A DNA stretch of 64,000 nt from NCBI GenBank assembly GCA_023374025.1, contig SIJG01000029.1:62001-126000 (forward strand), given 5' to 3'. Source of the stretch: Heterodera schachtii (taxonomy: Eukaryota > Nematoda > Chromadorea > Rhabditida > Heteroderidae). The position numbers were made by a program, and so were the translations under genes. Positions 5,801-46,771 of the stretch are shown one piece after another. How positions within the stretch are numbered: the stretch's first letter is position 1; each line of letters starts with the position of its first letter. The notes under the pieces are model-generated. The model did no database searches, was not told the DNA's origin, and saw only the letters and a program-made list of their open reading frames with translations.

Positions 5801-8800
5801 GTTGGCACGGCTCCAACAGTCGCTGGCCGACACAAAACCCATCGGCCCGTTGCTGCACCGGTGCCGCACACTGTGCCAGGCCAAGGCGCTGCTCCGCCTG
5901 CTCGACCTGGTCACCGACAAAATGTCCAACTCAATGTGCGCAATCACCGCGGCGCGGGGCCGCGGCAAATCGGCGGCCATGGGCCTGGCGGTTGCGGGCG
6001 CGGTCGGCTGCAATTTGACGAATATTTTTGTGACGAGTCCAACGCCGGAGAATGTGCGCACACTGTTCGACTTTGTGTTGCGCGGTTTTGACGCCATCGG
6101 TTACCAAGTTAGCTTTTGTTTTTGGCCTTGGGGGGAGCAGTTCGTCCGCCATGTCATTGTTTCCCCCGAAATTTTTTTTATTTTAGACATAAATTTTTCA
6201 AAAAATAAAAGTTTCCAAACCTAGAAAATTATTCAAAAAAAAAAAATCATGGAAAATTTTTATAGGAAAATTCCAAGAATAATTAGTTGATACCAAATTA
6301 ATGCTATTCTTATTTCTAGGCCTGAGACGGCGATTTTGGAGCAAATTCGGGAGGGCCGGAAAATTTTCGAAATTTTTGTTTTTTTTAAATACTCTTAATC
6401 ATAATTTTTTCCTTTTTAATATATTTGATTTATAACACTTAATTTGGTGTCTAAAATGGAGAACAATCATGAGTTTGCCATTCTTTTTCCAGGAACATGC
6501 CGACTTTGACGTGGTCCGCTCGTTGGACCCGCAAACCGACAAATGCGTGACGCGCGTCAACATTTTCCGGCGCCATCGCCAGACCATCCAAGTGGGGCAA
6601 CGGGGTGGGGGAACCAAGAAAATCGTCGAAACAACTTGGTAACCATTGCAGTACATCCATCCGTCCGAATTTGTCAAGTTGGGCCAGGCCGAACTGTTGG
6701 TGATTGACGAGGCGGCCGCCATTCCGATGCCATTGGTCCAAACAGCTCATCCACGGCAAGTTCACTATTTATTTAACATTGTTGCACTACATTCCCCCCC
6801 CCCCCCTTCTCCCCAGTCGAAATTTTTTTTACAGAAAAAATCATTAAAAAACTTTGAAAAAACGATTTTTTGGGAAAAATTACAAAAAAGAATCCATTAT
6901 AGAAAAAAATTCGCTAGAAAAATTTTCAATTTTTTTCTAACATTTTAGGTTTTTTTTTTCTTGGGAAATTAACAAATCTATTTTTAGAATTTTTTGAAAA
7001 ACGGTTTAAAACCCAAATGTTTTTGTTGTTTGGCATTTTTGAAAAATGATTTTGAGTTTTTCTTATTTCGTACACCCCAAAGAATTTAAAAAAAAGCTAT
7101 TTTTTGAATTTTTCTACAAAATTATTTTTTAGGGAATTATTTGGTGTTTCTCGCCTCGACCACCAACGGCTACGAGGGCACCGGGCGTTCACTGTCGCTG
7201 AAACTGCTTGAACAGTTGCGACGGGGCGGCGGCGGTACGACGACGGCGACTGGTGCCATCGGTGATACTGCTGCTGAAACGGCGACAACGGCACGGCGGC
7301 GACCGTTGTTCGAACTGACGCTGGAGGAGAGCATTCGTTACGCGATGAACGACCCGGTCAGGCGCTTGCACTGTTCAGGAGCAGCTCATTACCCCCCCCC
7401 CCCCCCCAATTTTTTTAATTTAAATTTTTTTTCAAGGCCATAACGATGCCGTAAAAACCCCAACTCAGTTTGGGCGAACTCTGTTTTTTATGAAAAATTT
7501 TTCCAGTAAGTCCCCAGTTTTAAAAAAAAATTTCTGCAAAAACTTTCGAATTATTTTACTTACAGCAAATTTTCTCAGAGGGTTTTGTTTTGTTTTTTGA
7601 AAAGTTCTTTATACGGACACTTAAAAAAAAATTTTCCTCGAAAAATTCGAAAATTTCGTATCAAAAAATGACAATTTCAAATCGCAGGTTGAAGATTGGC
7701 TCAATGGGACGCTGTGTCTCAACTCGCAGCAGAGTTTGCCCACGTCTTTGACAGGGACACCGGCGCCTGACAAATGCGAATTGTACGGCATTTTAAAAAA
7801 AGATGGCATTTTTTTAAATTTTAATTTTTTGTATTTATATAATTTTTTGCTTTTCAAAAGGTATTACGTCAACAGAGACTCGCTCTTCTCATTTCACAAG
7901 GCGGCTGAGGTGACCCAATTTTTTTAATTTAAGAAAATTTTAGGTCCGATTCTTATTATTAGAAAAGTTATAAAAAATTTCATGGAAAATTTTTAATTCA
8001 TCACAAAATTTAAAAAAAAATCGCTGGACAATTCAAACAAAAAAACAAAATTTTTGAACTGTTCTTATAAAAAAAATCATGTTTTATAAATTTGATTGAA
8101 AATTTAAAACAAAAAATCCAGGGATGAAACGACCGAAACGGGGGGGGGGGGGAGCTGTTCGCATAAGTGCCAAAATTTGCCATGGCCAAGAAATGAAAAT
8201 GTCCAACCAGCCCCCACCTCTTGATGAAAAGTGCCATTGAAATTGAACTCCTTTTTTTATTTTTCAGGTGTTCTTGGCTAATCTGATGTCCATTTACGTG
8301 GTACGTTTTGCCATTTACTCAAAAATTAATTTATTTTATTTTGGCATTAATTTTTCCCCCTCCAATTTTAGGCCGCCCATTACAAAAACAGTCCGGACGA
8401 CCTGCAAATGTTGGCTGACGCGCCGGCACATCACCTTTTTGTGCTGATGGCACCCGTGCCGGCTGATCAAAGCTCCGTGCCACAGGCAAATTATTTGGGG
8501 ATAAATTGGCATTTAATGGTCACCATTCCTAACCGAAAAATTAAATCCAAAAATTATCGAAAATATTTTTCAAAAAAAAAAAAATAAATTTAATTTATAA
8601 AAATAAATTTAATGAGCGATGGTGAAGGGTAAAATGTATTTAAATTTTATGCCAAATTCTCTCTACCTTTTTAGAATTTTCTATAATTTTTTAATTAATT
8701 GTAACTTAGAAATTTATTTTTCCCGGCTTGGGAAATGACAAAAAAAAACGATTTAAAAAATCTAATTAATCTGCGTTTCATCCGTCGTTTTCAGATTTTG

Positions 8801-11800
8801 GCGGTTGTCCAACTGTGCCTGGAGGGCTCCATCTCCAAACAAAGTGTGACAAATGTGCGGGACAAAGGCAAAAAACGGGCGGCCGGTGACCTCATCCCGT
8901 GGACACTTTGCCAACACTTTTTGGTCAGCAATGAAATTGGCGGTCATTTTAGGGACACCGATTTTTTTTTTGGGTTAAATGCCTACATTTGGACCAGTTC
9001 GTTTCCCCTTCCCCCGAAAATTAGAACTGAAAAGTTTTAATCCGCTATTTCTAGTAAAAAAAAAATGTCGGATTTTTTTCAAAGGGATTTCTCCCAAAAA
9101 TTTTTTTTTGTAATTTTTAAAACATACATGAAAAAAGGGGGGGGTCGACCCCCCCCCCCCCCCCATTTCGCCCGCAAAGGGCCCAAAATGTCGGACCATT
9201 TCGCATCGAGGGGGGGCCGGTGTAAAAGAGGTGGGGGGGGGGGGTCGCCGCCGAAGGGGAAAAGAGGGAAATTTCTGAAAAATTTGGCTATTTTCTTAAC
9301 AAAATTCATTAAAAATTCTTAAAATTTTCCCCGGCGGCGCCTATCGGCACCGCCGGCCCCCAAAAAATCTTATTTTTTTCCTTAAAAATTAGCCAAAAAT
9401 TCAAAATTTGGTCATTTTTTAGACAAAATATGCCGCCGCCGAACCCCCCCCCCCCCGTCCCCAAAAAGTTTTTTTTCAAAACCGCGCCGCAAAAAAAAAC
9501 CTTTTTTTATAAACAAAAAAAGTCGTCCACTTGCTAAAAAATCGCAAAATTCGGCAATTTTTGGTGAAATCTGTTAACAAATTGCACTCAAATTTTCAAA
9601 AATTTTCACCGGCGGCGCCTACCGGCACCGCCGGCCCCCCTTTTCGCGAAATTTTCTTAAAAAAAACCGCGCCGCGAAAAAAAAACGGTTTTTGAAAAGC
9701 AAAAAAAAAAAAAGGTCGTCAAATTACATGGCTGGACCATTTCGCAAAATTGGCCGCTGACCCCCCGTCGACCCCCCCTCCCAGACCATTTCGCAAAAAT
9801 TTTGGTTGACCCCCCCCTTTTTCATGTATGTTTCAAAAAAAAAAAAATTAAAGCAAATTTTCAAAAGTCACCAAGGGTTGGTTTTTTCGACTGAGTTTGT
9901 TGAATTCCTTCTAAAAAATGCATGTTTCAGGACGACGAATTCCCAACTCTGTGCGGTGCGCGCATTGTCCGCGTCGCTGTCCACCCGAACTTCCAAGGCA
10001 TGGGCTACGGGTCGCAAGCAGTTCGCCTCCTGCTCAACTTTTACGGGCAGCGCCCGCGGCACGTTTCAACGACAACAGCGGTGGCACAATGCCAAAATGG
10101 GGAGGACAAAAATGGTGGCAATGATGAGGAGGAGGATGAAGAGATGTCGAGGGTCCAACTTGTGGATGTAAGGCCATGCACTCGGTTTTATTTAAATTCA
10201 ACCCATGGAATTTTTTAAATTTTTTTGGTATTTTGACTAATCCCTTTGGTTAAAAGTGGAAATTATTTTTCATAATTCCAGCCCACGGGGTAAAAAGCAG
10301 CAATTTATAGACGTTTTTTGACAAAAAAATTTTTTTTTACATATTTTGATAATTTGGCTCAAATTTTTCAAAAATATGATATAATGTGTGAATGTAGGTA
10401 GCTTCAGTAACACCTTGAAAAATGAGGAAATTTTAATGATCTTTGTTAAAAAAATTGAGTAGTTTCATAAAATTTGCTAATTTTTCTTGCAATTTCCTAT
10501 TGTGGTTTTTTATTTTAAAAATATTTTTTTATTTGCCCTCTTCAAAAATAAAAACGCCTTTTAAAATTGAAATTGATTTTCCTGTGCCTTTTAAGGACGG
10601 CGATCTGCACAAATTGTTGCTCCATGACGAGCAAATTTCGCCCCGTGCCAATTTGCCCCCGTTGCTCGTCCGTCTCGCGGACTACCGACGCCATGCTGAC
10701 CAATTGGACTACGTCGGCGTTTCGTTTGGCCTCACGTTGGCACTGCTCAAATTTTGGAAACGGCTTGGCTTTGTGCCCGTTTATTTGCGCCAAAATACGA
10801 ACGATTTGACGGGCGAACACAGCTGCGTGATGGTGCGCAAAATTGCAGCTGCGGCAGGGGGAAAAGGAAGTGAACATGGCGAAGATGACGACGATGAAAA
10901 TGGGAGGATGGACGACGGGGAACGGAGTGAGTCAGAGTTTATACCGACAAAAATTGGCTTGGCACCAAATTTAGGCGAGTCGGCATTTTCCAACGGGCAT
11001 TTATATCCCACAAAAAAATTTTTTTTACAACTTTTTGAGAAAAAAATTTTTTTGAAATTAAATTAATAATAATTTTAAAAATATAGAAACTTTTCATCGG
11101 GAAATTTACGTGGGAATAAAATTCAATTTTCTAAAGTTTTAATTTTTTTAGATTTTTTTTTCTAAATTAAAAAATCAATTTTAGAAAAGTTGACCGAGAA
11201 ATTGAAATTAATTTTTTTGTTGGGCGTGGAGAAATACTTTTCATGAAAATACCATCATAAATAGACTATCAAATACGATTTTTTTTATCCATTCGTAAAA
11301 TTTCATTTTGTATTTCTTCGCTATAAATTAGGGCATCGTCATGCCATGCCGCAGAATTCTGCTGCCGCTTCTGGTGCCACGCTGAACTCGGACGGCACTT
11401 GGCTGTCCGCCTTCTTTGTGGAGTTCCGGCGTCGCTTCGTCTCTTTGCTTGGCACTTCGTTCAGCGCGTTCAGCCCCCACTTGGCGTTCAGTTTGATGTT
11501 CATGGACAGTGCCAGCATTGGCTGCTCCGTGCAGCAGCAACAGGGCGAACAGTCGGCAGAGAATGGTGAGCACCAAACACACCTTATGGTACAAAATGAG
11601 CCGCAAATGTCGGGCCGCAAATGTCGGTTATTGGCTGGGGCCGCAAATGTCGGGGCCGCAAATGTCGGGGCCGCAAATGTCGGGCCGCAAATGTCTGGGC
11701 CTCAAATGTCGGGACACGTGGGCCTCATCAAATAAAAATGTTCAGAAATCTTTGAATTCATAATTTTTTAAATAAATTTCTCGAACAGGAATAATTTTAG

Positions 11801-12781
11801 TCACCTCCCCTCTATTGTTTAGGCCTGCTTGACCGTGCCGAACTCCGTCTGCGCATGTCCGACTTGGACTTGCGCCGGGTTGCCCAATACTGTCGAAATT
11901 TGGCGGACTTGGCCCTGATCAGCGACCTGTTGCCCACCATTGCCGGCCTGTACTTCACCGCCCGGGTGGACACCAATCGGGCCCCGTTGGACCTGTCTCA
12001 GGCCGCTGTACTGCTTGGCGTCGGCCTGCAGCGCAAAATGGTCGAAACGGTGGCCAACGAATTGGCACTGTCCACCAGCCAAACGCACGCGCTGTTGAAC
12101 AAAGCGATCAGACGGTGGGTGAGACGGCGGAGGAGCACGGGGGCCAAGATGGTGAACTATGTTCCTGCCCCCCCCCCCAACCGTATTTCAATCAGTTCCC
12201 CATCTCTTGGCCATAAAATTTTGAAAATCCGAAATTTTTTTTAAATTCATTCGAAATTTTTTATTTAATTTTTTTCAGGAAAACCACTCTAATTGTAAGA
12301 AATTTTGAAAATTTAAAAATTTGAATTCTACAAAAGAAAAAAAATGTTTAATAAAAAATGGATTCTGAAATTTTAAAAAACAAAAATTTAAAAATGTTTT
12401 GGAGGAATTTCGCCGTTAAAAATATTTGTGAGGAAATTCGCCGTAACTTTCTGTTTAAAAAAACGAAATCTTGTGTATTTTCTTGTTTATATAATAAATA
12501 ATAATTTGGTTTGGCTCCATAACCCGTAAATTTACCAAATTAAGGGCCATCTATTTGACTTACAGTATTTGTTTTGGTTCCAATTTTGGTTTTCGTTTTT
12601 CAGTTTGTCCGAATATTTCGACTCAATTTGCCGTGAGGCGCTTGAACAGCAACAACAACACAACACAAATGATCGCCAACAGCACATAGCAACAGAAGCA
12701 GAAGGAAAATTGGGGGCAAAAACGAAAAGCGACGAATGCCCGGCGATTAAAAAATTGAAAATTTCACATTTTGTCAAATGA
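2896..12781 (+). CDS. NAT10: RNA cytidine acetyltransferase NAT10/Kre33, 20 exons
   Basis: Exons read from splice sites and protein similarity: 2896-3057, 3114-3156, 3615-3673, 3774-3882, 4344-4465, 4850-5035, 5772-6107, 6493-6591, 6652-6755, 7133-7356, 7688-7782, 7861-7909, 8268-8300, 8372-8485, 8795-8923, 9931-10167, 10596-10926, 11332-11565, 11823-12114, 12604-12781. All join in phase except exon 9 to 10. The product is about 1044 residues, close to the roughly 1025 of human NAT10. Landmarks are the N-terminal RIRAQIERGVANRWRSLF, a Walker A ARGRGKSA near residue 288, VIDEAAAIP (Walker B), NGYEGTGRSLSLKL, the GNAT acetyl-CoA loop FQGMGYGS near 643, and YLRQNTNDLTGEHSC. Known role: ATP-dependent N4-acetylcytidine formation on 18S rRNA and tRNA in the nucleolus. 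Introns are swollen with repeats, and two look GC-AG (after 6755 and 8485). The start is the conserved MGRIKLDGRIR. Confidence 0.93.
3971..4350 (+). repeat. duplicated acceptor and start of NAT10 exon 5
   Basis: A 21-base stretch (TCGGCACTTTTCAG plus ACTTTGA) occurs at 3971-3991 and again at 4330-4350. The second copy contains the true exon 5 acceptor and first bases. The first copy is a decoy: splicing there would give DFDSVDLQ and then a stop near 4028. A hAT-like insertion (4075-4241) lies between the two. Confidence 0.6.
4075..4241. mobile_element. hAT-like element, word CCGGGACCGGG
   Basis: The termini are TAGAGAGAGCGGGACCGG and the complementary CCGGTCCCGCTCTACTCTA. The interior is made of CCGGGA / TCCCGG words in both orientations. 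The flanks TGAATCAG and GAATTCAG are an imperfect 8-bp duplication. It lies in NAT10 intron 4. The same family is at 36508 and 43665. Confidence 0.65.
5239..5453. mobile_element. hAT-like element, word CAGGTACAGG
   Basis: The terminal inverted repeat is TAGAGATCGG / CCGATCTCTA. A perfect 8-bp target-site duplication GTATGCAT lies at 5231-5238 and 5454-5461. The interior is almost wholly CCTGTACCTG / CAGGTACAGG and GGATCCAGG words. It lies in NAT10 intron 6. Confidence 0.85.
9124..9833. mobile_element. inverted-repeat element with two GC stem-loop cassettes, NAT10 intron 15
   Basis: The ends are ACATACATGAAAAAAGGGGG and its complement CCCCCCTTTTTCATGTATGT. Inside are repeated GGACCATTTCGCA words near both ends and two copies (about 9332 and 9610) of the stem-loop GGCGGCGCC-TATC/TACC-GGCACCGCC. 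Each is followed by a GCGCCGC-AAAAA stretch. The open frames here are poly-G/poly-P shadows and not genes. I could not define a target-site duplication. Confidence 0.55.
11598..11712 (+). repeat. GCCGCAAATGTCGGG tandem words in NAT10 intron 18
   Basis: Seven or so imperfect copies of a 15-18 base unit, GCCGCAAATGTCGGG, lie just after exon 18. A related word (GACATTTGCGGCG, its complement) recurs at 46265-46395. The three downstream paralogous copies of this intron lack the array. Confidence 0.7.
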
Positions 12782-17541: not shown

Positions 17542-19131
17542 ATGAGTGCCAATTTGGTGAGGAGTTTCCGTCCAGGAGCTACTGATCAGACGATACCTAT
17601 GCACTTTTTCGAGGCTGTTGACGACTTTGCACTTTCCGACTTCTTTGTGGAGTTCCGGCACCGTTTCGTCTCTTTGCTTGGCACTTCGTTCAGCGCGTTC
17701 AGCCCCCACTTGGCGTTCAGTCTGATGTTCATGGACAGTGCCAGCATCGGCTGCTCCGTGCAGCAGCAACAGGGCGAACAGCCGGCTGAAAATGGTGAGC
17801 ACCAACCACGGGGTGCACTTCATTTCCCCCCCCCCCCCCCGTCGTTTCCCCCCGGGTCGTCCCGCAAAAAAAAATTTTTTTTTCAATTTTCAAACCTAGA
17901 AATTTTTTCATAAAAAAATTCTTAGGAAATTTCTTAGTAAGAAAATTTAAAGAAAAAATTATTTGAAAAATTTTTCAGCGATTTTTTGGAAAATTTTCAA
18001 AAAAACTTAGTAGTTCATTATAAAATTTCGAAAAAATCGCTGAAAAATTTCGAAAAAACTTTTCAAAACCTTGACTCGAAATCTTCATATAAAAAACTTC
18101 AACTAACAATAAGATTTATATTGATAAATTCTTATTTTGAAATTTCCTAAAAAAAAATTTGAATTATTTTCAAGCAATTTTTTTAGGAAAAATTTTACAT
18201 TTTGAATGAGCCTCAGCAAATAAAAATGTTCAGAAATCTTTGAAATTCATAATTTTTTAAATAAATTTCTCGAACAGGAATAATTTTAGTCACCTCCCCT
18301 CTATTGTTTAGGCCTGCTTGACCGTGCCGAACTCCGTCTGCGCATGTCCGACTTGGACTTGCGCCGGGTTGCCCAATACTGTCGAAATTTGGCCGACTTG
18401 GCCCTGATCAGCGATCTGTTGCCCACCATTGCCGGCCTGTACTTCACCGCCCGGGTGGACACCAACCGGGCCCCGTTGGACCTGTCCCAGGCCGCTGTAC
18501 TGCTCGGTGTCGGCCTGCAGCGCAAAATGGTCGATACGGTGGCCACCGAATTGGCACTGTCCACCAGCCAAACGCACGCGCTGTTGAACAAGGCGATCAG
18601 ACGGTGGGTGAGACGGCGGAGGAGCACGGGGGCAGCAGAGGCTGAACGGAATCCCCTCCCCCAACCGCATTTCAATCAGTTCCCCATCTCTTGGCCATAA
18701 AATTTTGAAAATCCGAAATTCTTTTAAAATTCATTCGAAATTTTTTAAATTTTTTATTTAATTTTTTTCAGGAAAACCACTCTAATTGTAAGAAATTTTG
18801 AAAATTCAAAAATTTGTAACTCTACAAAAAAGTTTGTAGAAAAATTTGATTCTGAAATTTGGGAACAAATTTACATTGAAAAAACTTCCAATCTTTTTTA
18901 TTCAATATATCATCTATTTGCTTATTTGTTATTTGGGTTCCAATTTTGGTTTTTGTTTTTTTCAGTTTGTCCGAATATTTCGACTCAATTTGCCGTGAGG
19001 CGCTTGAACAGCAACAACAACAACACAACACAAATGATCGCCAACAGCACATAGCAACAGAAGCAGAAAAAACGAAAAGTGACGAATGCCCGGCGATTAA
19101 AAAATTGAAAATTTCACATTTTGTCAAATGA
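17542..19131 (+). CDS. caspase p10-like segment fused to NAT10 C-terminal exons, copy 2
   Basis: Three exons keep phase: 17542-17794, 18312-18603 and 18966-19131, about 236 codons. The first 32 residues (MSANLVRSFRPGATDQTIP..., then FFEAVDDFALS) align with the caspase p10 strand VSWRN....F.CEV at identical spacing. Just upstream, VPADQSVLLG continues the p10 match but is out of frame by one base. From DFFVEFRHRFVSLLGTSFS onward the protein is NAT10 exon 18, then exon 19 (LLDRAELRLRMSDLD...) and exon 20 (LSEYFDSICREALEQ...ISHFVK). Acceptors, donors (GTGAGC, GTGGGT) and stop are intact. It lacks the NAT10 helicase and GNAT domains. It could be an expressed chimera or a decaying duplicate; I favour the latter, with doubt. 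Confidence 0.5.
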
Positions 19132-22452: not shown

Positions 22453-24483
22453 ATGAGTGCCAATTTGGTGAGGAGTTTCCGTCCAGGAGCTACTGATCAG
22501 ACGATACCTATGCACTTTTTCGAGGCTGTTGACGACTTTGCACTTTCCGCCTTCTTTGTGGAGTTCCGGCGCCGTTTCGTCTCTTTGCTTGGCACTTCGT
22601 TCAGCGCGTTCAGCCCCCACTTGGCGTTCAGTCTGATGTTCATGGACAGTGCCAGCATCGGCTGCTCCGTGCAGCAGCAACAGGGCGAACAGCCGGCTGA
22701 AAATGGTGAGCACCAACCACGGGGTGCACTTCATTTCCCCCCCCCCCCCCGTCGTTTCCCCCCGGGTCGTCCCGCAAAAAAAAATTTTTTTTTCAATTTT
22801 CAAACCTAGAAATTTTTTCATAAAAAAATTCTTAGGAATTTCTTAGTAAGAAAATTTAAAGAAAAAAATTATTTGAAAAATTTTTCAGCGATTTTTTGGA
22901 AAATTTTCAAAAAAACTTAGTAGTTCATTATAAAATTTCGAATCGCTGAAAAATTTCGAAAAAACTTTTCAAAACCTTGACTCGAAATCTTCATATAAAA
23001 AACTTCAACTAACAATAAGATTTATATTGATAAATTCTTATTTTGAAATTTCCTAAAAAAAATTTGAATTATTTTCAAGCAATTTTTTTAGGAAAAAATT
23101 TTACATTTTGAATGAGCCTCAGCAAATAAAAATGTTCAGATCTTTGAAATTCATAATTTTTTAAATAAATTTCTCGAACAGGAATAATTTTAGTCACCTC
23201 CCCTCTATTGTTTAGGCCTGCTTGACCGTGCCGAACTCCGTCTGCGCATGTCCGACTTGGACCTGCGCCGGGTTGCCCAATACTGTCGCAATTTGGCCGA
23301 CTTGGCCCTGATCAGCGATCTGTTGCCCACCATTGCCGGCCTGTACTTCACCGCCCGGGTGGACACCAACCGGGCCCCGTTGGACCTGTCCCAGGCCGCT
23401 GTACTGCTCGGTGTCGGCCTGCAGCGCAAAATGGTCGATACGGTGGCCACCGAATTGGCACTGTCCACCAGCCAAACGCACGCGCTGTTGAACAAGGCGA
23501 TCAGACGGTGGGTGAGACGGCGGAGGAGCACGGGGGCCAAGATGGTGGTGAACTGTGTGACCCGGGGTGAACTACGTTCCCCCCCCCCCCCCCCCGGCTC
23601 GGTTTCTCCCCGCATTGTTTCCCCTCCCCGGAGTAGGACAAAACGTCGTCGGCCCGAATTTTTCGACCATAACTTTTTTCTTTCTCAACCAACTTAAACA
23701 TTCTTGGTATTATTCGAAAGCATACGAAAAATGCTATTAGCCTGCAAATTTTTAAATTTTTTATTCATGCACAAAAAAATCGAAGCAAAAAAAAAGGTTC
23801 GAAATACTAGGTTTTTGAGTTCCTTCTGGCCATAACTTTTTGGAAACTTAACGAAAATTTTTGAAATTTTGCAAATTAATAATAAACACATAGAGCTATC
23901 GAACAACACCAACAATGCTTAATTTTATTGACAATGAACAAAGTTATGGTTCAAAAAGTCTTCCGACGACGTTTTGGGGTGCACCGTCCCCTCCGCCCCC
24001 CGAAAATTAAAAAAAGTTTATTAACATAGAAATCAAGAAAAGAAATTTTAGAAAATTTTGTTGTAAGAATAATCCCATGAAAAAAAATTCGATAAATTTT
24101 ACGGTGAATTACTAAAAATTTTTCCAAAAAAGTCAGTGAAATGGTTCTCCCCACCTCTTGGCCATAAGATTTTGAAATCCTAATTTTTTTTTCTTATATT
24201 GAAAAAATTTCTAATATTTAAAAAAAAGATAGATAAATTTACCGTATTTAAGGGCCATCTATTTGCTTATTTGGGTTCCAATTTTGGTTTTCGTATTTTC
24301 AGTTTGTCCGAATATTTCGACTCAATTTGCCGTGAGGCGCTTGAACAACAACAACAACAACACAACACAAATGATCGCCAACAGCACACAGCAGCCGAAG
24401 CAGAAGGAAAATTGGTGGCAAAAACAAAAAGTGATGAATGTCCGGCGATTAAAAAATTGAAAATTTCACATTTTGTCAAATGA
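22453..24483 (+). CDS. caspase p10-like segment fused to NAT10 C-terminal exons, copy 3
   Basis: This is the near-identical partner of the 17542 chimera. Exons 22453-22705, 23216-23507 and 24303-24483 stay in phase and give about 241 codons ending at TGA. The p10-derived start (MSANLVRSFRPG...) and the one-base frame break just before it are shared with copy 2, so both predate the tandem duplication. At the join this copy reads ALSAFFVEFRRRF, closer to the parent gene than copy 2 (ALSDFFVEFRHRF). The first intron again begins with a poly-C foldback. Expression is unknown. Confidence 0.5.
23640..23980. mobile_element. foldback, GACGTTTTG / CAAAACGTC ends
   Basis: GGACAAAACGTCGTCGGCC on the left is mirrored by GACGACGTTTTGGGG on the right. 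The interior has CCATAACTTTTT, TTCGAAAGCATACG, and CATAGAGCTATCGAACAAC words of the shared foldback module. It lies in the second intron of the copy 3 chimera. Confidence 0.5.
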
Positions 24484-25999: not shown

Positions 26000-27351
26000 G
26001 AAAACCTTATCTGCGCACATTAGACAGTGCCTTGGTGGAAAATGCCATGTCAAAAAAAAAATCAATCTTGTATACATTTTTTGAAAGTGCTGAGAATGTC
26101 CTCGAACAGAATGCGTTTGAAACTCCACAAGCGCAACAGGAACGGAGAAAAATCGAAGGAATATTGGGTAAAATAAGTGGTCATAAGCTTGATGATGACG
26201 GTAAAACAATGACACATTATTACTTTGAAAAAGGTGGCAAAGAATGTTCACGTGTTATCTACGTCAGGATCTAGATTTGAATTTTGAAATTTATGTTTGG
26301 TATGTTCGAAAACCGTACACCATCGTGGTGAACAGGAAAGACACTGTGGCAATAGTGAAGAACAAAATCCAACACGTAATTTTTATACCGTATCAAACCC
26401 AAACATTGACCCCGAGACGCAACCATGGCAAAGCGCTTGAGGAAAATGAAACGATTGGCATTCCGCCCGGGCGCCAAACACTGAGACGCAACCATCCATA
26501 TGCCAAAGCGCTTGATGATGACAAAACAATGTATTATTATGGCATTGAAAAAGAAACAACCATTTTCCTGGGGTTGGATGAATTTAAAATTCAAGTGGAT
26601 TTTGCGTGGGAGGAAGTTGGTAAAAAAGGTAACACGTACAATGTTTGGGTGAAAAGAACGGACACTGTGACAATTTTGAGGAAGAAAATCAAGGCCGTCA
26701 TGTCTTCTTATAATTATGAATTCGCCAGTAACCATATGCCCGGCTTTGCCTGGTTATACTGTCAAATGGGATGAGAATGTGCAAACGGTGGAACAATGTG
26801 ACATCAAAAAAGGACACGCCTTTCAAGTGAGGGAAAAGCCGACCAAGGGCGTAGCCAGACCCTTGGCTTCAGGGGGGCTGAAATCAAAAATTCGATCTTT
26901 AGGGGTGTATTTTCCGTTTTTTAGTCGATCTTTAGGGGGTGTGTTTTTCGTTTTTGAAATCCCGAAATTAGCGGGTGTATTTTACAAAATTTTTCGCCGT
27001 TTTTCACCAAAAAATTACAATTTTTTGCCATTTTGGCCTTCATTTTTCAAAAATATAGTAAAATGGGGGTCCGGCGGTGCCGATAGGCACCGCCTGGGAA
27101 ATTTTTTGAGAGTTTTAATGCAATTTTGTTAAGAAAATTGCTTAAAATTTCAAAAAAATTACTGATAATTTTTTACTTTTTTTGGGTTTCGGGGGGGGGG
27201 GGGGCTTTAGCCCCCTCAGCCCCCCCCCCCTGCCTACGCCCTTGAAGCCGACCACATCTGCTGCTCAAGACAAAAGAACAGCCAAGAAAAAAGCAGCGTC
27301 AAAAAAGAAGGATGGACTTTTGGTCCCGTTGTTAGGAGATGATGCTGATTA
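26000..27351 (+). pseudogene. broken secreted ubiquitin-like repeat gene (3' half)
   Basis: From about 26013 the DNA matches the 3' two-thirds of the intact gene at 36835-38220 (starting at the segment 37294 onward) and its 3' flank. The frame breaks near 26250, where KGGKECSRVIY diverges, and again near 26740 (MPGFAWLYCQMG*). A 401-bp hAT-like element interrupts the last domain. Remaining fragments include EIYVWYVRKPYTIVVN and IQVDFAWEE. The signal peptide and first domain are absent. Confidence 0.8.
26844..27244. mobile_element. hAT-like element with CAAGGGCGTAG ends
   Basis: The terminal inverted repeat is CAAGGGCGTAG / CTACGCCCTTG. A perfect 8-bp duplication AAGCCGAC lies at 26836-26843 and 27245-27252. 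The intact paralogue has the empty site at 38116-38123. It contains TTTAGGGGTGTATTTT words, one GC stem-loop at about 27072-27094 (GGCGGTGCC-GATA-GGCACCGCC) and poly-G/C near the right end. It is the sister of 57811-58228. Confidence 0.92.
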
Positions 27352-28557: not shown

Positions 28558-28726
28558 GTAGACCGGGTTTAGAACAATGACACAACATTCCCATTTAAAT
28601 CATTTTAATTTATAATTTTTGATGGGCTTAAATAGTTAAAAATGTCTCGAAGCCTTGGTTTTAAAATTTTTTAAAATTAAAATCGAACTATGATTAGCCA
28701 ATCACCACCTCCCCCCCCTTATTTAG

Positions 28727-29745
28727 GCCTGCTTGACCGTGCCGAACTCCGTCTGCGCATGTCCGACTTGGACTTGCGCCGGGTTGCCCAATACTGTCGA
28801 AATTTGGCGGACTTGGCCCTGATCAGCGACCTGTTGCCCACCATTGCCGGCCTGTACTTCACCGCCCGGGTGGACACCAACCGGGCCCCGTTGGACCTGT
28901 CCCAGGCCGCTGTACTGCTCGGTGTCGGCTTGCAGCGCAAAATGGTCGAAACGGTGGCCAACGAATTGGCACTGTCCACCAGCCAAACGCACGCGTTGTT
29001 GAACAAGGCGATCAGACGGTGGGTGATACGGTGGAGGAGCAGGGCCGAGATGGTGGGTGAACTGTGTTCCTGTCCCCCCCACTCCCAAGCTCATTTCTAT
29101 CCGTTCTTCACCTCGGCCAAAAATTTTGATAAACCCGTATTTTTTTTATTCGAAAATCATTCGAGGATTTTTTTCAAATTACCTATTTTATTTTCTAAAA
29201 TTTTTTCTGAAACCACTCTAATTGTAAGAAATTTTGAAAATTCAAAACTTTTCAACTCTACAAAAGAAAGCAAAAATTGTTTAATAAATTTTCTTAGGGA
29301 CAATTCATCATATTCAAAAACAAAAATTTAAAAATGTTTTGGAGGAAATTTGCCGTTAAAAATATTTGTGAGGAAATTCGCCGTGTTTAAAAACAAAATC
29401 TTGTACATTTTCATGCTTTTATATAAAAAGAAATAATTCGGTTGGACATGTAAAATGATTAGTGATTATGGGACACATAAAACGGACAGTAACCATAAAT
29501 TTGCCAAATTAAGGGCCATCATTTGCTTGTTTGTTATTTGGGTTCCAATTTTGGTTTTTGTTTTTTTCAGTTTGTCCGAATATTTCGACTCAATTTGCCG
29601 TGAGGCGCTTGAACAGCAACAACAAAAACACAATGCCAATGATCGCCAACAGCACACAGAAGCAGCGAAAGAAGCAGAAGGAAAAACGAAAAGCGACGAA
29701 TGTCCGGCGATCAAAAAATTGAAAATTTCACATTTCGTCAAATGA
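28727..29745 (+). pseudogene. NAT10 exons 19-20, copy 4
   Basis: 28727-29018 matches NAT10 exon 19 (LLDRAELRLRMSDLD...LLNKAIRR) and 29571-29745 matches exon 20 (LSEYFDSICREALEQQQQKHN...ISHFVK, TGA). Acceptors and the GTGGGT donor are intact and the phase is kept. No exon 18 or any upstream exon is near, so there is no evident start. It is a dispersed partial duplicate. The 3' flank again matches NAT10. Confidence 0.75.
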
Positions 29746-31960: not shown

Positions 31961-32045
31961 TTTTATAATAAAAGTGCCGAACAAAAGTGATCATTTAATG
32001 CTACAAAATACAAACTTTGAATAGAATTCTGCCACATAAAAGGGG
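31960..32045 (+). promoter_or_regulatory. conserved core promoter with TATA-like box, first intact ubiquitin-like gene
   Basis: ATAAAAGG at 32036-32043, inside CCACATAAAAGGGGTGCC, lies about 95 bp before the ATG. The block TGATCATTTAATGCTACAAAATACAAACTTTGAATA..AATTCTGCC just upstream is nearly identical to the sequence before the second gene (36695-36755). That conservation, next to diverged coding regions, supports a regulatory role. The motif GTGCCGAACAAAAGTGATCA upstream is repeated in both loci. Confidence 0.55.
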
Positions 32046-32136
32046 TGCCTTGACAGTGGTGAAGCAACAATCCCCACATTTATTCATTCCCAATTACTCC
32101 CTCCCATTCCCTCCAATTGCCACCAAATTTCCCCCA

Positions 32137-33717
32137 ATGAAGAACCATTTTTGCTTTTCACTGTTCACCGTTGGCACTGCTGCTTGGCTAGTGTTAATGC
32201 TTTTCATGTTGATGACAATGCCTTCATCCGTTGATGGCTATGAAGTGTTCGTGATGCCAATGGATGAAAACATGACAAAAAAGACTGGTGATTTTATCAC
32301 CTTTGAGCTGGAGAAAAGACAAATCACTGCGACAGATTTGAAGAAGAAAATCGCACAAAAGATTGGCATTCCGCCCGAAAGACAAACACTGAGAAAGCAA
32401 ACCCTATATGACGATTCGCACAACAATGATGATTCCTTTTACGATGGTTCATCCTATTTCTTGTCGTTGGACGAATTTGAAATTGCCGTGTGGTATAAAG
32501 GCAGTAAATACACCATTTGGGTGAAACAAACGGACACTGTGACAGTTTTGAAGAAGAAGATCCAAAGAATAATTGGCTTTGTGCCCGCAAGACAAACCTT
32601 GTACAAATTCAATCTTGCTAATCAGAAAATTGCCATGAAAAATAAAAAAAACTCAGAAAAATTAAAGGAGAAGCTAAAAGATGGGATTAAATTAGCAATT
32701 GAAGAGACGCACCAGCAACAAGAATTTAGAAAAATTGAAGAAGCAATGGCAAATGTAGAAGGTACAGTGCTTGATGAAGAGGACGGTAATAAAACAATGG
32801 CCCAATATGGCATTGTGGAAGAGGAAAACATTTATGTATCGGTGGATGGATTTGACATTTTGGTGCAATATGCGGAGGAGATAATTGTTAAAAAGGATAA
32901 CAGAGATCATTTTGAATGGAAATTGAACTCCTACACTTTACGGGTGAAGTCCACCGACACTGTGGCAACTCTGAAGAAGAAAATCCAGGAGAAGGTTTTC
33001 AGTCTTCATTCAAGCTATACTATTTCGGCATATCAACTGACAGTGAGACGTGACAGCCATTATGGCATTGTGCTTGAGGACAACAAAACAATGAAAGATT
33101 ATGGCATTGTAAGGCATGGAGCCGTTTACGCGTCGAGTTTTGAGTTTGAAATTTATGTTTGGTATAACGGCAAACCGTACACCATTGATGTGAGAGAGAG
33201 CAACAGTGTGGAAACGCTGAAACAGAGAATCCAAAGTGTAATTAGCATTACGCCAGAGCGCCAAACGCTGAGACACAAAAACCCATGCAACGTTGCGCTT
33301 GAGGCCGGTAGAACTTTGTTGTCTTATTCCATTAAACAAACAACAAGCATTTTCTTGGCATTGGATGAATTAAAAATCAACGTGATTTTTATATCGGAGA
33401 AACAAAGTAAACCAGGGAACACGTACAACGTTTGGGTGAAGGGAACGGACACTGTGGCAATTTTGAAGAAGAAAATCTATGCCGCGTTGACAATGGGTTA
33501 TATATTTTTAATTAAATATGATTTCATTAGTGACCACGAATGCCTTACTGCCGGAGGGGATGAGAATGTGAAAACGATGGAACAATGTGGTGTCAAAGAA
33601 GGACACACCTTTAAAGTGAAGAAAAAATCCGACCACATCTGCTGCTCAAGGCAAAAGAACAGCCAAGAAAGACAGTGCCAAAAAGTGATGAATCTGGACT
33701 TTCGGCCCCGTTGCTAA
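32137..33717 (+). CDS. secreted protein with about five divergent ubiquitin-like domains
   Basis: This is a single-exon gene of 526 codons. I chose the ATG at 32137 (MKNHFCFSLFTVG...) rather than the in-frame one 120 bases upstream, because the paralogue at 36835 begins there and the TATA-like box falls at -95. Residues 1 to about 33 form a signal peptide (VLMLFMLMTMPSSVDG). At least four to five ubiquitin-fold repeats follow, shown by TDTVTVLKKKIQ, IGIPPERQTLR and EAGRTLLSYSIKQTTSIFL, which echo ubiquitin DTIENVKAKIQ, GIPPDQQRL and DGRTLSDYNIQKESTLHL. A coiled, charged linker (KNSEKLKEKLKDGIKL...) lies between domains 2 and 3. There is no GG processing site. The tail is Cys-rich and is read in a different frame from the paralogue's basic tail. 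By analogy with cyst-nematode ubiquitin effectors it may act in the host; that is inference. Confidence 0.8.
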   Translation: MKNHFCFSLFTVGTAAWLVLMLFMLMTMPSSVDGYEVFVMPMDENMTKKTGDFITFELEKRQITATDLKKKIAQKIGIPPERQTLRKQTLYDDSHNNDDSFYDGSSYFLSLDEFEIAVWYKGSKYTIWVKQTDTVTVLKKKIQRIIGFVPARQTLYKFNLANQKIAMKNKKNSEKLKEKLKDGIKLAIEETHQQQEFRKIEEAMANVEGTVLDEEDGNKTMAQYGIVEEENIYVSVDGFDILVQYAEEIIVKKDNRDHFEWKLNSYTLRVKSTDTVATLKKKIQEKVFSLHSSYTISAYQLTVRRDSHYGIVLEDNKTMKDYGIVRHGAVYASSFEFEIYVWYNGKPYTIDVRESNSVETLKQRIQSVISITPERQTLRHKNPCNVALEAGRTLLSYSIKQTTSIFLALDELKINVIFISEKQSKPGNTYNVWVKGTDTVAILKKKIYAALTMGYIFLIKYDFISDHECLTAGGDENVKTMEQCGVKEGHTFKVKKKSDHICCSRQKNSQERQCQKVMNLDFRPRC

Positions 33718-36755: not shown

Positions 36756-36834
36756 ACCTCAGTCCCCACATTCATTCATTCATCCCCAATTTCCCCCTAC
36801 CCCATCCGTTCAAATTACCAACATATTTCCCTCA

Positions 36835-38220
36835 ATGAAGAAGCATTTTGGCTTTTCACTGTTCTCATTTGGCATTGCTGCTAGGCTAATGCCAATGCTT
36901 TTCATGCTGATGGTAATGCCTTCATCCACTGATGGCCATGAGGTGTTCGTGATGACAATGGATGAACAGCTTTTCGAAGAGCATGGCGATCTTTTAACCA
37001 TTGAGTTGAAAGAGGGAGCGAGCGCTATTGATGTGACAACTTTGAAGCAGAAAATCCAACAAAAGATTGGCATTCCGCCCGAAAGACAAACATTGAGAGG
37101 CAAAACCCCATATGCCATAGCATTGAAATCTGGTGATAAAATTAATTTTAATGGAATAGTTTTCTTGTCGTCGGACGAATTTGCAATTTCCGTGTGGTAT
37201 TACGGCAAATCCTCCGTTTGGGTGAAAGGAACAGACACTGTGGCAATTTTGAAGATGAAAATCCAAGGCATAATCCACTGTAAACCCAAAAGTCTGCGCA
37301 CATTAGACAGTGCCTTGGTGGAAAATGCCATGTCAAAAAAAAAACCAATCTTTTATAAATTAATTGAAAGTGCCGGGAATGTCCTTGAACGGATTGCATT
37401 TGAAACTGAAGAAGCGCAACAGGAACGGAGAAAAATCGAACAAATATTGCGTAAAATAAGTGGTCATAAGCTTGATGATGACGGTAAAACAATGACATAT
37501 TATGACTTTGACAACGGTGGCAAAGACGTTCACGTGTTATCTACGTCAGGATCTAGATCTGAATTTGAAATTTATGTTTGGTATGTTAGAAAACCGTACA
37601 CCATCGTGGTGAACACGAAAGACACTGTGGCAATAGTGAAGAATAAAATCCAAAAAATAATTTTTATGCCCCATCAAACCCAAACATTGACCCCGAGACG
37701 CAACCATGGCAAAGCGCTTGAGGAAAATGAAGCGATTGGCATTCCGCCCGGGCGCCAAACACTGAGACGCAACCATCCATATGCCAAAGCGCTTGATGAT
37801 GACAAAACAATGTATTATTATGGCATTGAAAAAGAAACAACCATTTTCCTGGGGTTGGATGAATTTAAAATTCAAGTGGATTTTGCCTGGGAGGAAGCAG
37901 ATAAAAAAGGTAACACGTACAATGTTTGGGTGAAAAGAACGGACACTGTGGCAATTTTGAGGAAGAAAATCAAGGCCGTCATGTCTTCTTATAATTATGA
38001 ATTCGCCAGTACCATATGCCCGGCTTTTCCTGGTTATACTGTCAAATTGGATGAGAATGTGCAAACGGTGGAACAATGTGACATCAAAGAAGGACACGCC
38101 TTTCAAGTGAGGGTAAAGCCGACCACATCTGCTGCTCAAGACAAAAGAACAGCCAAGAAAAAAGCAGCGTCAAAAAAGGATGGACTTTTGGTCCCGTTGT
38201 TAGGAGATGATGCTGATTAG
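36835..38220 (+). CDS. secreted protein with about four divergent ubiquitin-like domains and basic tail
   Basis: This is a single-exon gene of 461 residues. A signal peptide (MKKHFGFSLFSFG...MPSSTDG, about 34 residues) precedes the ubiquitin-like domains. Domain 1 (HEVFVMTMDEQ...IGIPPERQTLRGKTPYA) and domain 2 (FAISVWYYGKSSVWVKGTDT) come first, then a charged helix-like linker (residues about 160-220). Domain 3 (EIYVWYVRKPYTIVVN) contains an internal repeat of the PPxxQTL...YAKALDDDKTM part, and domain 4 is FKIQVDFAWEEADKKGNTYNVWVK. The C-terminus DKRTAKKKAASKKDG is basic and resembles a nuclear localisation signal or a ubiquitin-extension tail. The paralogues are 32137-33717 and the broken copy at 26000. 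It is probably secreted; a host-directed role is inference. Confidence 0.8.
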   Translation: MKKHFGFSLFSFGIAARLMPMLFMLMVMPSSTDGHEVFVMTMDEQLFEEHGDLLTIELKEGASAIDVTTLKQKIQQKIGIPPERQTLRGKTPYAIALKSGDKINFNGIVFLSSDEFAISVWYYGKSSVWVKGTDTVAILKMKIQGIIHCKPKSLRTLDSALVENAMSKKKPIFYKLIESAGNVLERIAFETEEAQQERRKIEQILRKISGHKLDDDGKTMTYYDFDNGGKDVHVLSTSGSRSEFEIYVWYVRKPYTIVVNTKDTVAIVKNKIQKIIFMPHQTQTLTPRRNHGKALEENEAIGIPPGRQTLRRNHPYAKALDDDKTMYYYGIEKETTIFLGLDEFKIQVDFAWEEADKKGNTYNVWVKRTDTVAILRKKIKAVMSSYNYEFASTICPAFPGYTVKLDENVQTVEQCDIKEGHAFQVRVKPTTSAAQDKRTAKKKAASKKDGLLVPLLGDDAD

Positions 38221-43023: not shown

Positions 43024-44390
43024 ATGAGAACTGTGCAAACCGCACGCAAAAGCACCGGGGGAATGCCGCCAAGAAAGCAAACTGCGCGCAAGTCAGCAGG
43101 AGGGGCAGGGCAGCGACTGCAAACTGCACGCATGCCAGCAGCAGGAGGAGGAGAACAGATTCTGGGCACTGCGCGCAGGTCAGCAGGAGGGGCTGCACCG
43201 CGATTGCAAACTGCGCGCAGGTCAGCCGGAGGGTCAGGACAGCGACCGCAAACTGCGCGCAGGTCAACAGGAGGTGCAGCACCGCGACCGCAAACGGCGC
43301 GCAGGTCAGCCGGAGGGTCAGGACAGCGACTGCAAACTGCACGCAGAGCAGCAGCAGGACCCTCCCTACGGAATGGTAGCTGAATTTTTCGGGGTCTATC
43401 ATTGAAGGGGTTCTGTGTTTATGAGCCCTCCAAACTTAAAAGTTTTATTTTTATTAATTTCCATTATTGAAACTCATTAATAAATTTAAAAACTCAATTT
43501 GATATTTAAAAAATAAAAATTAATATTTTAAATTAAATTAAAATTCATTCTTATTATTTTAATTAATTCTAAGGTCCATCTGATCACGAATCTGACACCT
43601 TCTTGACCAATTCATAGTCCTAACCTGTACTCAAAAAATTTTTTTCAATTTCCATTATTGAAAGTAGGGTTGGTCGGGACCGGGAATTTTGGCAAAAACC
43701 GGGACCGGGAATTTTCGGGTTGAAAAACCGGGAAAAAACCCGGGAATTTCCCGGTCCCGGTCAAAATTTGTCAAAACCGGGACTGGGTACTCAGTTGTAC
43801 CCGTTTTTTTCAGTACCAGTCCCGGTCCCGACCAACTCTAATTGAAAGTCATTAATAAATTTACAAACACATTTGATTATTTAAAAAAATAAATTTAATA
43901 TTTTAAATTATTTTAATTAGTTAATTAATTCATTCAATTACTTTCAAGAGTCCTAAATTTTTTATTTCTTCATTAACTGTGATCAGAGAGCATTTTCATG
44001 AGTGACATTATTTTACAAAAAATTTTGCAAACCAAAAGGGTCCCTCCCCCTTTGGCTTTTAAAATGCAAAATGGGCAATTTATTAATAATGACAATTTAT
44101 AAAATTAATTTATGAAACATTAATGTTATTTTACCTTAGTTTTAGCATAAAATTGTATTTGTTTTTATTATTTATTTTTATTCATTAAAAAACACAAAAT
44201 TTTGCATTATTTTTTGAATTAAAATGTTTTTTATTAATCCAAAAAAAAATTCTTTTTTTAAATCATTTCCCTGATTCAAGATGTGGCTGCTGATGATGCT
44301 GAAGATGATGAATCGGTTTCAGAAATGGAGGAGGATTCGTCAGAGGACAATGAGCCGCCCCAACTTGTTCAAGAAGTTCACCAGGGCTGA
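43024..44390 (+). CDS. histone H3 tail-repeat protein with acidic C-terminus (two exons)
   Basis: Exon 1, 43024-43375, starts MRTVQTARKSTGGMPPRKQ, which matches the histone H3 N-terminus with V for K4 and M for K14 and with K9, S10 and K18 kept. Eight tandem units of 14-15 residues follow, each beginning QTAR (once GTAR): QTARKSTGG, QTARKSAGG, QTARMPAAGG, then five with TARR. A GTAGCT donor at 43376 joins in phase to 44281-44390 (acceptor TTCAAG), an acidic tail VAADDAEDDESVSEMEEDSS... ending at TGA. AATAAA follows at 44515-44520. The joined protein is about 153 residues. If unspliced, exon 1 ends at TGA 43381-43383 (119 residues). There is no histone fold and no signal peptide. Function unknown; a chromatin-reader or modifier decoy is a hypothesis. 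The splice join is inferred from phase only. Confidence 0.6.
43665..43840. mobile_element. hAT-like element, word CCGGGACCGGG
   Basis: The termini are TAGGGTTGGTCGGGACC and GGTCCCGACCAACTCTA. A perfect 8-bp duplication ATTGAAAG flanks it. It lies in the proposed intron of the H3 tail-repeat gene. Confidence 0.92.
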
Positions 44391-44520
44391 CGGCATTTCG
44401 GAGATGGCACAGCAGCAACAGCAATGATCTGATCTGATTGATCGATGTCGCGTATTTCCTCGGCACACAAAATATTTGATTGTTTTTTTTAATTAAGTAA
44501 ATCTGATCCAAGACAATAAA

Positions 44521-46771
44521 TGCTGGAGCTTGTTCGTTATTTGATTAATTCTTGACCTGGTTTCATAGTTTAGTCTGAATTTCCTAAATAAAAATAATTT
44601 TTGGTCAGATGTACTATTTGTCCTTGTTTTTCTGAGTTTGTCCTTATTTGGAGGGGTAGAATCTTAGAAAATAGTCATTATTTAGCATGTCATCCTTTTT
44701 TTTTCCATTTTTTTTCTTAAATAATGGTTATTCAAATAATAAAAATGGTATTTAGGCCAACATTTTTGTAAGTTAGCCTATATTGGAGTAAAATTTACTA
44801 GATTTCGTCTATTTGATTAATCCCTGGCCTGGATATCATATTTTGACCCATTTTCAGTATAAAAATCTGGCAAATTTACTATTTGTCCTAATTTCTCTGA
44901 TTTGTCTTTATTCGGAGGGGTTGTTAAAATTTGCGAAATCCTTAATTTGAAGATTCTACCTTATTTCATTTTTTCCTTTTTTTTCTCGTTTTCGTATAAA
45001 ATAAAAAAATGATTATTTTTAGCCAAATTTTTTGTTTTGTTTTTTTTGTAAAATAGCATATTTTGGCGCAATATCTGTGAAAAAATTGAATAAATTTTCA
45101 AAAATTTCCCAGCAGTATCCTGGCATTACAGAAGCAGGGCGAGTGCTGGCCAGGCCGTTTTCGTGTGGCCATTTTTGCGTGGGGTACGTGTTCGCGTGAG
45201 TGCCTGTTTCGGACTGAATTGGTCGGATCTGTGCCGAACATCCAGTTTTTTATAACGTCTTTTTTGGTGGCTTTTTTATAACGACTCAGCACCTGTCACT
45301 CTCCCCCCCCCCCATTTTCCATCTGTGGCATCCCCTCCTAAATCCCTCCCTTTTCGTCGTCCTCCGCCTCTGTATAAGCCCTCAATTTTCCCATAATTTT
45401 TAAAAACACAAATTCTTGTCAATAGATTGATTTTTGAGAAAATTTTACATTATTAGGGGGGTGCATTTTTGAAAATTTTCTGGTCGATTCTTATTGGGTG
45501 CATTTTTTGTTTTTTTTTGCAGTTTTGTTAACAAATTTTGGGCAAAACGCCAAAATAGTTGAAAATAGTTTTTTAAAATTTAGAAAAATAAAAAACTAGA
45601 AAATAGTTGCTAATAACTCGAAAAGTAGCTTAACAACAGCCGAAAAAAACACGTTTTTCGTGCATTTCAGTCTATGGGTAGCTCAGGAATTTGGCGTTTT
45701 GTCACTATTTTTTCACTATTTCGGCATATTTTTAGAAAATTTTTGACAAAAATGCAATAAAAACGAAAAATATACCCCTAAGAACCAATATAAAAAAATT
45801 CAAAAAATACACCCCTAAGAATCGGCCTAAAAATTTTTGGAAAATTTTCTAAAAAATTCTTCCCCAAATTTTTTTTCTTGACAAATTTTTGGTTTAAAAA
45901 AGTCAATATTTACTAAGAAAATATTAGAAAGGAAATTTACCTCATTACAACTGCAATCATTGAATTAAAATTATTTTTGCTAATTTTTGGCTGAAAATTA
46001 TTTCACTAAAACGTCACTATTTCGGACTTTTTTCTCTATTTTGTCACTATTTTGGCACTTATTCGTCACTATTTTAGTTAACTATTTCGAGACTTTTCGT
46101 CACTAAAAGTTGCTTCCCTAATGATAACTAGAGATGATATTTATAGTTGCTAAAAACTGGCAAAATATTTAGTTTTTAAGTTCAAAAAAACCCTAAAATG
46201 GGTACTAAAAATGGGAAATAGTTGATAAAAACTTTCAAATTTAGAGGGTGTAAAATCGGTGATGCGACATTTGCGGCTTTACATTTACGACGCCCAGTCA
46301 AAATGACATTTGCGGCGCAGCATTAAATGACCCAAAACCAAAGGACCTTTTTTATGCGCTTCAAATGCCACGCCGCAAATGTCGGCGCAGCATCTTTTTA
46401 TAGGTCAGAGAATGATTATTTATCCAATAATTCTAAGTTTGGTCAAGTCAGAGTAGATCGTACTAACGCAGTCGGTTTTAGGCGGCGGTGTAAAAACAAT
46501 GGGCCAAAATATTCAACCGACCAAAACTCTATTTCAAATTTATAGAGAAATCTGAAATAATTCATTAGCACATAACTTAAAATTGATCAGACCACTTTTT
46601 GATGGTGATCGGAATACCAAAATACACTGAAAATAAGGGAAAGTTAAAAAAACCATTGGTTGGTAATTTTTTGGAAAATTTAGATAGACTTATAAAGAAG
46701 AGCACTAAACTCTACAAAATACAAAGTGTATTAACCAATAGACTAAATACTCATACATTGTATTACTTTAA
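44521..46771. other. gene-free stretch of decayed word repeats
   Basis: 44620-45000 has TTGTCCTTATTTGGAG words. 45240-45290 is a truncated end of the GGTGCTGAGTCGTTATA family, reversed. 45440-46115 has GTCACTATTTCGG and GGGTGCATTTTT words and ends AGTTGCTTCCCTA. 46244-46395 has GACATTTGCGGCG words. A short open frame at 45115-45200 (QYPGITEAGRVLARPFS) is not supported by anything else. Confidence 0.5.

Follow-up and report, generated by a model that had tools for sequence, protein, structure and literature searches.

A short open reading frame (ORF) in the window, the whole stretch of 64,000 nucleotides that was analyzed, begins like the N-terminal tail of histone H3 and then repeats a part of that tail. 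This raises the question of whether the ORF is a gene for a protein imitating the H3 tail or a relic of an H3-type sequence that grew by slippage. The ORF starts with the ATG at 43024 on the plus strand and ends with the TGA at 43381-43383 (Table 1). Compared with mature H3 1-18, its N-terminal residues MRTVQTARKSTGGMPPRK replace A1 by M, K4 by V, K14 by M, and A15 by P. After M1-V4, the ORF consists of eight units starting with QTAR (GTAR in one). Six of them are 42 bp long, unit 3 has 45 bp, and unit 8 has 48 bp up to the stop; TRF independently found a 42-bp array at 43077-43358 with 6.6 copies. R8 is kept in all eight units and Q5 in seven; at the K9 position, units 1 and 2 have K, unit 3 has M, and units 4 to 8 have R. 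In unit 3 (QTARMPAAGG), S10 and R17 are also lost. The sequence-only reading had described the H3-like start, the eight units, and the lysine kept in the first two units only, and these features are borne out here. It had also reported the absence of a histone fold (alpha1-L1-alpha2-L2-alpha3), in agreement with our results: no Pfam family was found for the 119 residues at E ≤ 1, and the AlphaFold single-sequence model (mean pLDDT 59.3) has one 12-residue helix and no fold. Pfam found no enzyme domain in the ORF, so the mimic is not within an H3K9 methyltransferase itself.

Table 1. Positions in the window of the ORF, its units, and the candidate downstream features
Feature	Position	Strand	Remarks
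H3-tail-mimic protein ORF (exon 1 if spliced)	43024..43383	+	119 codons plus stop
N-terminal 18 residues, MRTVQTARKSTGGMPPRK	43024..43077	+	in register with mature H3 1-18
Unit 1, QTARKSTGGMPPRK	43036..43077	+	K9 kept
Unit 2, QTARKSAGGAGQRL	43078..43119	+	K9 kept
Unit 3, QTARMPAAGGGEQIL	43120..43164	+	45 bp; K9 to M
Unit 4, GTARRSAGGAAPRL	43165..43206	+	K9 to R
Unit 5, QTARRSAGGSGQRP	43207..43248	+	K9 to R
Unit 6, QTARRSTGGAAPRP	43249..43290	+	K9 to R
Unit 7, QTARRSAGGSGQRL	43291..43332	+	K9 to R
Unit 8 with protein end, QTARRAAAGPSLRNGS	43333..43380	+	K9 to R
Possible intron (GT...AG)	43376..44280	+	in phase; splice sites weak by eye; unproven
Possible acidic second exon	44281..44390	+	in-phase junction; unproven
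AATAAA, possible polyadenylation signal	44515..44520	+	sequence

In the local alignment against H3, the ORF scored 87, and none of 5000 residue shuffles was as good (shuffle maximum 66). The other two plus-strand frames scored 29 and 28, which is the shuffle level. Among PDB chains, H3 peptides were the top matches of the ORF (E 1.7e-4, over residues 2-25). We searched the genome (178.5 Mb, 356 contigs) with the 45 N-terminal residues of its own H3 up to E 10, and four candidates were scored. Three matches were obtained at E ≤ 10. One was the H3 gene on contig C10, and the others were the window ORF (E 0.15) and a stretch on contig C35 (E 0.03). The first look was loose, so this search may have overlooked weaker relatives. 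The ORF was not among the 14 matches of the full-length H3 query (limit E 0.001). The degenerate pattern QTAR-K/R-S-T/A-GG has six genome-wide occurrences, five of which lie within the ORF and the sixth in the H3 gene, and its reversed control gave no match. The H3 gene, at C10:1730400-1730534, is the only one with an intact QTARKSTGG tail found in the assembly, from which further H3 copies may be missing. On contig C2, the tail of the H3-variant genes L003, L006, and L007 (3 of 6 C2 loci examined) is shortened to MARRSNATGTRKPHRYRPG, without the K4-K36 part.

With the ORF as the query, six places were found at E ≤ 0.1: the ORF, the C35 stretch (E 0.07), C2:2802, C2:2225626, C31, and C4. Three of these outrank the C35 stretch (C2:2802, E 0.001; C2:2225626, E 0.02; C31, E 0.05), and the two of the three that were read look by eye like unrelated repeats. 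The translations read, those of L010, L012, and L014, all have this appearance, and none of the four places besides the ORF and C35 is counted as a relative. L010 (C2:2802-3002) consists of arrayed QKWRRKSGGAKV-type words with stops, close to the end of the contig, and looks unrelated to the ORF. Viral relatives were also considered, and none of the 70 pattern matches was confirmed. In a DNA search with very common words skipped, exon 1 and the region of the candidate second exon (44240-44640) each have one genomic match, leaving a multi-copy repeat or transposon unsupported.

The C35 stretch (C35:1122552-1122626, minus strand) reads MRLKQLACKSTGGRAPRKQTAYKCAGGRPAKRSFFITQWKMKK and belongs to the first exon of a SET gene (MRLKQLACKSTGGRAPRKQTAYKCAGG). 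An in-phase GT-AG intron joins this exon to SET-protein exons on the same strand (locus L016, C35:1118000-1127500, minus strand), and the joined protein has an acidic C-terminus. Pfam identified a SET domain in the joined protein (E 2.1e-19), and the nearest solved structures are the H3K9 methyltransferases EHMT1/EHMT2 (E 4e-21 to 8e-20), followed by KMT2A (1e-14). The SET and post-SET motifs NHSC, ELxxDY, and CxCx4C are present by eye. For the pre-SET zinc domain, Pfam gives SET alone and exon 2 resembles the pre-SET start by eye, in a model of hand-chosen exons of which one may be missed. By our own arithmetic, the chance of an H3-like match within 2 kb upstream of a SET match on the same strand is about 8e-5, counting 14 SET matches, 2 kb each, and two strands, in a test picked after seeing the result. 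Two SET paralogues on contigs C23 and C83 are 61% and 46% identical to C35 in exon 5. No H3-like exon was found within about 3 kb upstream of either (2 of 3 SET paralogues), and their upstream regions scored 28 and 31 against H3, compared with shuffle maxima of 35 and 39. The C23 paralogue (L045, about 717600-718360, minus strand) has a C-terminal tail of about 245 residues with IAAKSVEGQ / VAVK-like repeats and evenly spaced lysines, in a reading frame set by splice phase. An H3 likeness of this lysine-rich tail, striking by eye, was dropped, with 782 of 5000 shuffles as good.

The alignment of the C35 exon 1 with the ORF is gap-free over 29 residues from the start Met with 66% identity, and the C35 exon as the query finds the ORF at E 0.006. 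The two share features that H3 does not have: the place of A1 is taken by a Met followed by Arg, and the RKQLATKAARKS of H3 is represented by RKQTAxKxAGG. A Met before Arg is normally retained. Because this Met stands at the position of H3 A1, the numbering coincides and K9 is residue 9 in both mimics. C35 has two units and the window ORF eight. These sequence features suggest that the ORF and the C35 exon 1 share ancestry, or at least a common design. The C35 exon 1 carries ACKS and AYKC, with C and Y at the R8 places. Mammalian G9a requires R8, and the lack of R8 in C35 counts against the H3K9-ligand explanation given below.

The main rival explanation is a relic or minisatellite, in which an H3-type 5' coding fragment or the SET exon 1 has grown by 42-bp slippage and serves as basic filler or is untranslated. 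In the H3 gene, the word AAGCAA encodes both K4Q5 and K18Q19 at a distance of 42 bp, and slippage from one to the other would yield exactly a 14-residue unit. H3 residues 4-17 and 18-31 are identical at 6 of 14 positions. By appearance, units 4-5 and 6-7 stem from an 84-bp duplication at a later stage, and this order of events is tentative. The relic also fits the drift of unit 3 and the last unit, and the abundance of tandem arrays throughout the window (70 TRF rows). Five of the six frames are open across the array, a caveat missing from the sequence-only reading, and the openness of the ORF therefore proves nothing. The case for a gene rests on the H3 likeness, the codon-level constraint, and the second gene on C35.

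The codons of the first two units speak against a relic. Between units 1 and 2, the nine-residue motif is kept (T/A at one place) despite different third positions in 7 of 9 codons, and serine is encoded by AGC in unit 1 and TCA in unit 2. The between-unit pN/pS in the ORF frame is 0.60 for all eight units and 0.54 with units 3 and 8 left out (with unit 3 reduced by one codon and unit 8 trimmed, to give 14 codons each), compared with 0.87-1.41 in the other plus frames. The minus frames range from 0.43 to 1.57, and one of them is equally low (0.58, 0.43), which we count against the constraint argument. Between genes, identical residues use different codons at 12 of 18 positions for ORF-C35, 10 of 15 for ORF-H3, and 10 of 14 for C35-H3. 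The corresponding pS values are 0.76, 0.70, and 0.86, and the pN values are 0.24, 0.24, and 0.32. The third-position excess alone is modest (binomial p 0.01 to 0.08 in four comparisons). The codon pattern together with the H3 likeness points to an encoded and conserved peptide, at least in units 1 and 2. We consider the relic rather unlikely, and a coding gene of the H3-tail-mimic type highly probable.

The best explanation as a whole, to which we assign a probability of about 0.4, is a real H3-tail-mimic gene that is related to the N-terminal part of a G9a-like enzyme and would act as a ligand of the H3K9 writer/reader system. A small, disordered, arginine-rich protein would imitate the H3 N-terminus, with H3 1-18 copied and the 14-residue unit then repeated. 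Expressed in the worm's own nuclei, this protein would act as a free ligand for the writers and readers of H3K9, a role that we propose only tentatively. The array may bind H3K9 enzymes and readers, be modified by them, or compete for them, and the simplest ligand role would be that of a substrate and binding competitor. The decoy, scaffold, or substrate suggested by the sequence-only reading would each be conceivable. Units 1 and 2 would present a methylatable K9 in the H3 context, and their methylation by a SET family of the C35 type is doubtful. The K9R units would retain R-R-S, a context resembling the S10 kinase site, but would not be methylatable there. The K9 lysine is missing from six of the eight units, which we count against this reading. 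As possible readers, 58 chromodomain matches were found genome-wide. A sizeable share of these matches sit in frames open for about 370-410 residues, which gives the impression of a multiplied, perhaps mobile, family, and many of them may come from mobile elements.

A further extension of the H3-tail-mimic reading would be a two-gene system, for which a nematode lineage would have placed the mimic on a G9a-like methyltransferase and also set it free as a multiplied protein. The pseudo-histone tail of the enzyme and the soluble array of eight units would jointly tune H3K9 methylation in trans. The K9 units would be substrate-like, the K9M unit inhibitor-like, and the K9R units for the kinase only. 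We regard this system as unlikely. If the H3-tail-mimic reading is true, the genome would contain a natural multivalent analogue of the histone tail along with a similar copy on an H3K9-type enzyme, and the feeding or holding of such enzymes by pseudo-substrates would become directly testable with peptides.

The sequence-only reading named no described protein with this design. Histone mimicry as such is known from the self-methylation sites of G9a/GLP and from EZHIP, and the ORF is therefore a new variant and not an unprecedented design. The histone mimics that we found described are single short motifs. What is new here is a free, repeated, in-register H3-tail protein and a similar exon on an EHMT-like SET gene. 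Our literature search, with subscription journals mostly outside it, found no tandem H3-tail protein and no H3-like N-terminus on a nematode SET enzyme. Histone H3 itself resembles the ORF in residues 1-18 and in having its K4Q5 and K18Q19 codons 42 bp apart, whereas the ORF protein has no histone fold and no residues past the tail. G9a/GLP (EHMT2/EHMT1) have their own H3-like sites, which are self-methylated and recognized by HP1, with Aurora B phosphorylation acting as a block (PMC9768651). As in the C35 gene, an H3K9-like lysine motif is tied to an H3K9 methyltransferase. However, the G9a/GLP sites are single and internal to the enzyme, whereas the copy of H3 1-18 is at the very N-terminus of the C35 SET gene, and the window mimic is an eight-unit array in a separate protein without an enzyme domain. 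The same source describes the autoregulatory loop of Clr4/SUV39H, an intrinsic lysine segment gating the H3K9 methyltransferase (PMC9768651). Unlike the mimics here, this loop is internal, lies beside the active site, and has no copy of the H3 N-terminus. Non-histone H3K9-mimic proteins have been placed in EHMT/CBX networks, where a short ARKS-type motif marks a candidate EHMT target (PMC10611923). The Ala-Arg-Lys-Ser/Thr motif of the self-methylated G9a/GLP mimics is present in units 1 and 2 of the ORF (2 of 8). Those network mimics are short single motifs in larger proteins, without a tandem array in register with H3.

EZHIP (CXORF67) suggests another function for the ORF. It inhibits EZH2 via a K27M-like peptide in which R405 before M406 is needed (PMC6513997). 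Like the ORF, EZHIP carries its histone-like peptide, directed against a SET enzyme, on a protein of its own, and unit 3 has Arg and Met at the lysine as EZHIP does at R405-M406 (PMC6513997). The difference is that EZHIP has one K27M-like peptide against EZH2, whereas the ORF has the K9 context, repeated, with mostly K or R. As a K-to-M inhibitor, the Met of unit 3 would block the active site of an H3K9 methyltransferase, and the other units would raise the affinity. The K4 and K14 positions of unit 1 are likewise hydrophobic (V and M), in line with such a function. An Arg-Met pair with the Met in place of the target lysine occurs in unit 3 alone (1 of 8), which makes an EZHIP-like inhibitor the lesser option, and unit 3 is also without S10 and R17. 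Five units have Arg there, and EZHIP with its Met replaced by Arg did not inhibit (PMC6513997). We consider this inhibitor improbable.

The H3 words may also have been inherited by a general basic nuclear protein of the protamine or linker-histone kind, for which they would be irrelevant. The composition of the ORF protein, with R or K at 24 of 119 residues (20%), one acidic residue, and no fold, is compatible with this. However, an R or K share of 20% is far below that of protamines, charge is not all that has been conserved but a specific motif containing Q, T, A, S, and G, and a similar motif is found on the SET gene. Such a protein is quite improbable. A secreted decoy aimed at host chromatin has slight probability: the genome is that of a nematode (204 exact genomic matches to the nematode SL1, none to the reversed control), and two neighboring ORFs, 31999-33714 and 36757-38217, combine ubiquitin domains with a hydrophobic stretch at the N-terminal end, but, by eye, neither the ORF N-terminus (MRTVQTARKSTGG) nor the C35 exon 1 has a hydrophobic leader. 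Chance resemblance of a compositionally biased tandem repeat to the H3 tail would fit the genome-wide E of just 0.15, and is very improbable because the sole other H3-tail match besides the H3 gene is a SET-gene exon, to which the ORF matches at E 0.006, and because the likeness starts in register at the Met.

The acidic second exon of the sequence-only reading is upheld in part. The GT at 43376 and the AG at 44279-44280 give an in-phase junction to the acidic end DVAADDAEDDESVSEMEEDSSEDNEPPQLVQEVHQG*, the candidate exon has a G+C of 0.49 compared with 0.27 in the intron, and a possible polyadenylation signal follows. On the other side, inspection by eye suggests weak splice sites (donor AATG|GTAGCT, acceptor GATTCAAG), and another open frame runs over the candidate exon to 44427. 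The exon as a part of the gene is thus unproven. The interpretation of the ORF as an H3-tail mimic is strengthened by the SET exon match on C35, which was not visible to the sequence-only reading. Within the possible intron, at about 43669-43837, is a small-transposon-like inverted-repeat element (TGGTCGGGACCGGG ... CCCGGTCCCGACCA), and similar words are also found in the locus of the C23 SET paralogue.

The window contains further genes and ORFs. A third ubiquitin-domain ORF is at 26229-26771, on the plus strand like the two mentioned above, in which the hydrophobic stretch follows the Met. Elsewhere in the genome, on contigs C9 and C30, SL1 leader copies are repeated in tandem at intervals of about 577 and 612 bp. 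In the window, a NAT10-type gene with helicase and tRNA_bind_2 domains is at 5640-12241 (plus strand). It is followed on the same strand by three partial C-terminal copies at 18290-18697, 23194-23694, and 28681-29328; Pfam was run on 5640-6221, 11801-12241, and 18290-18697, and the other two copies were judged by translation.
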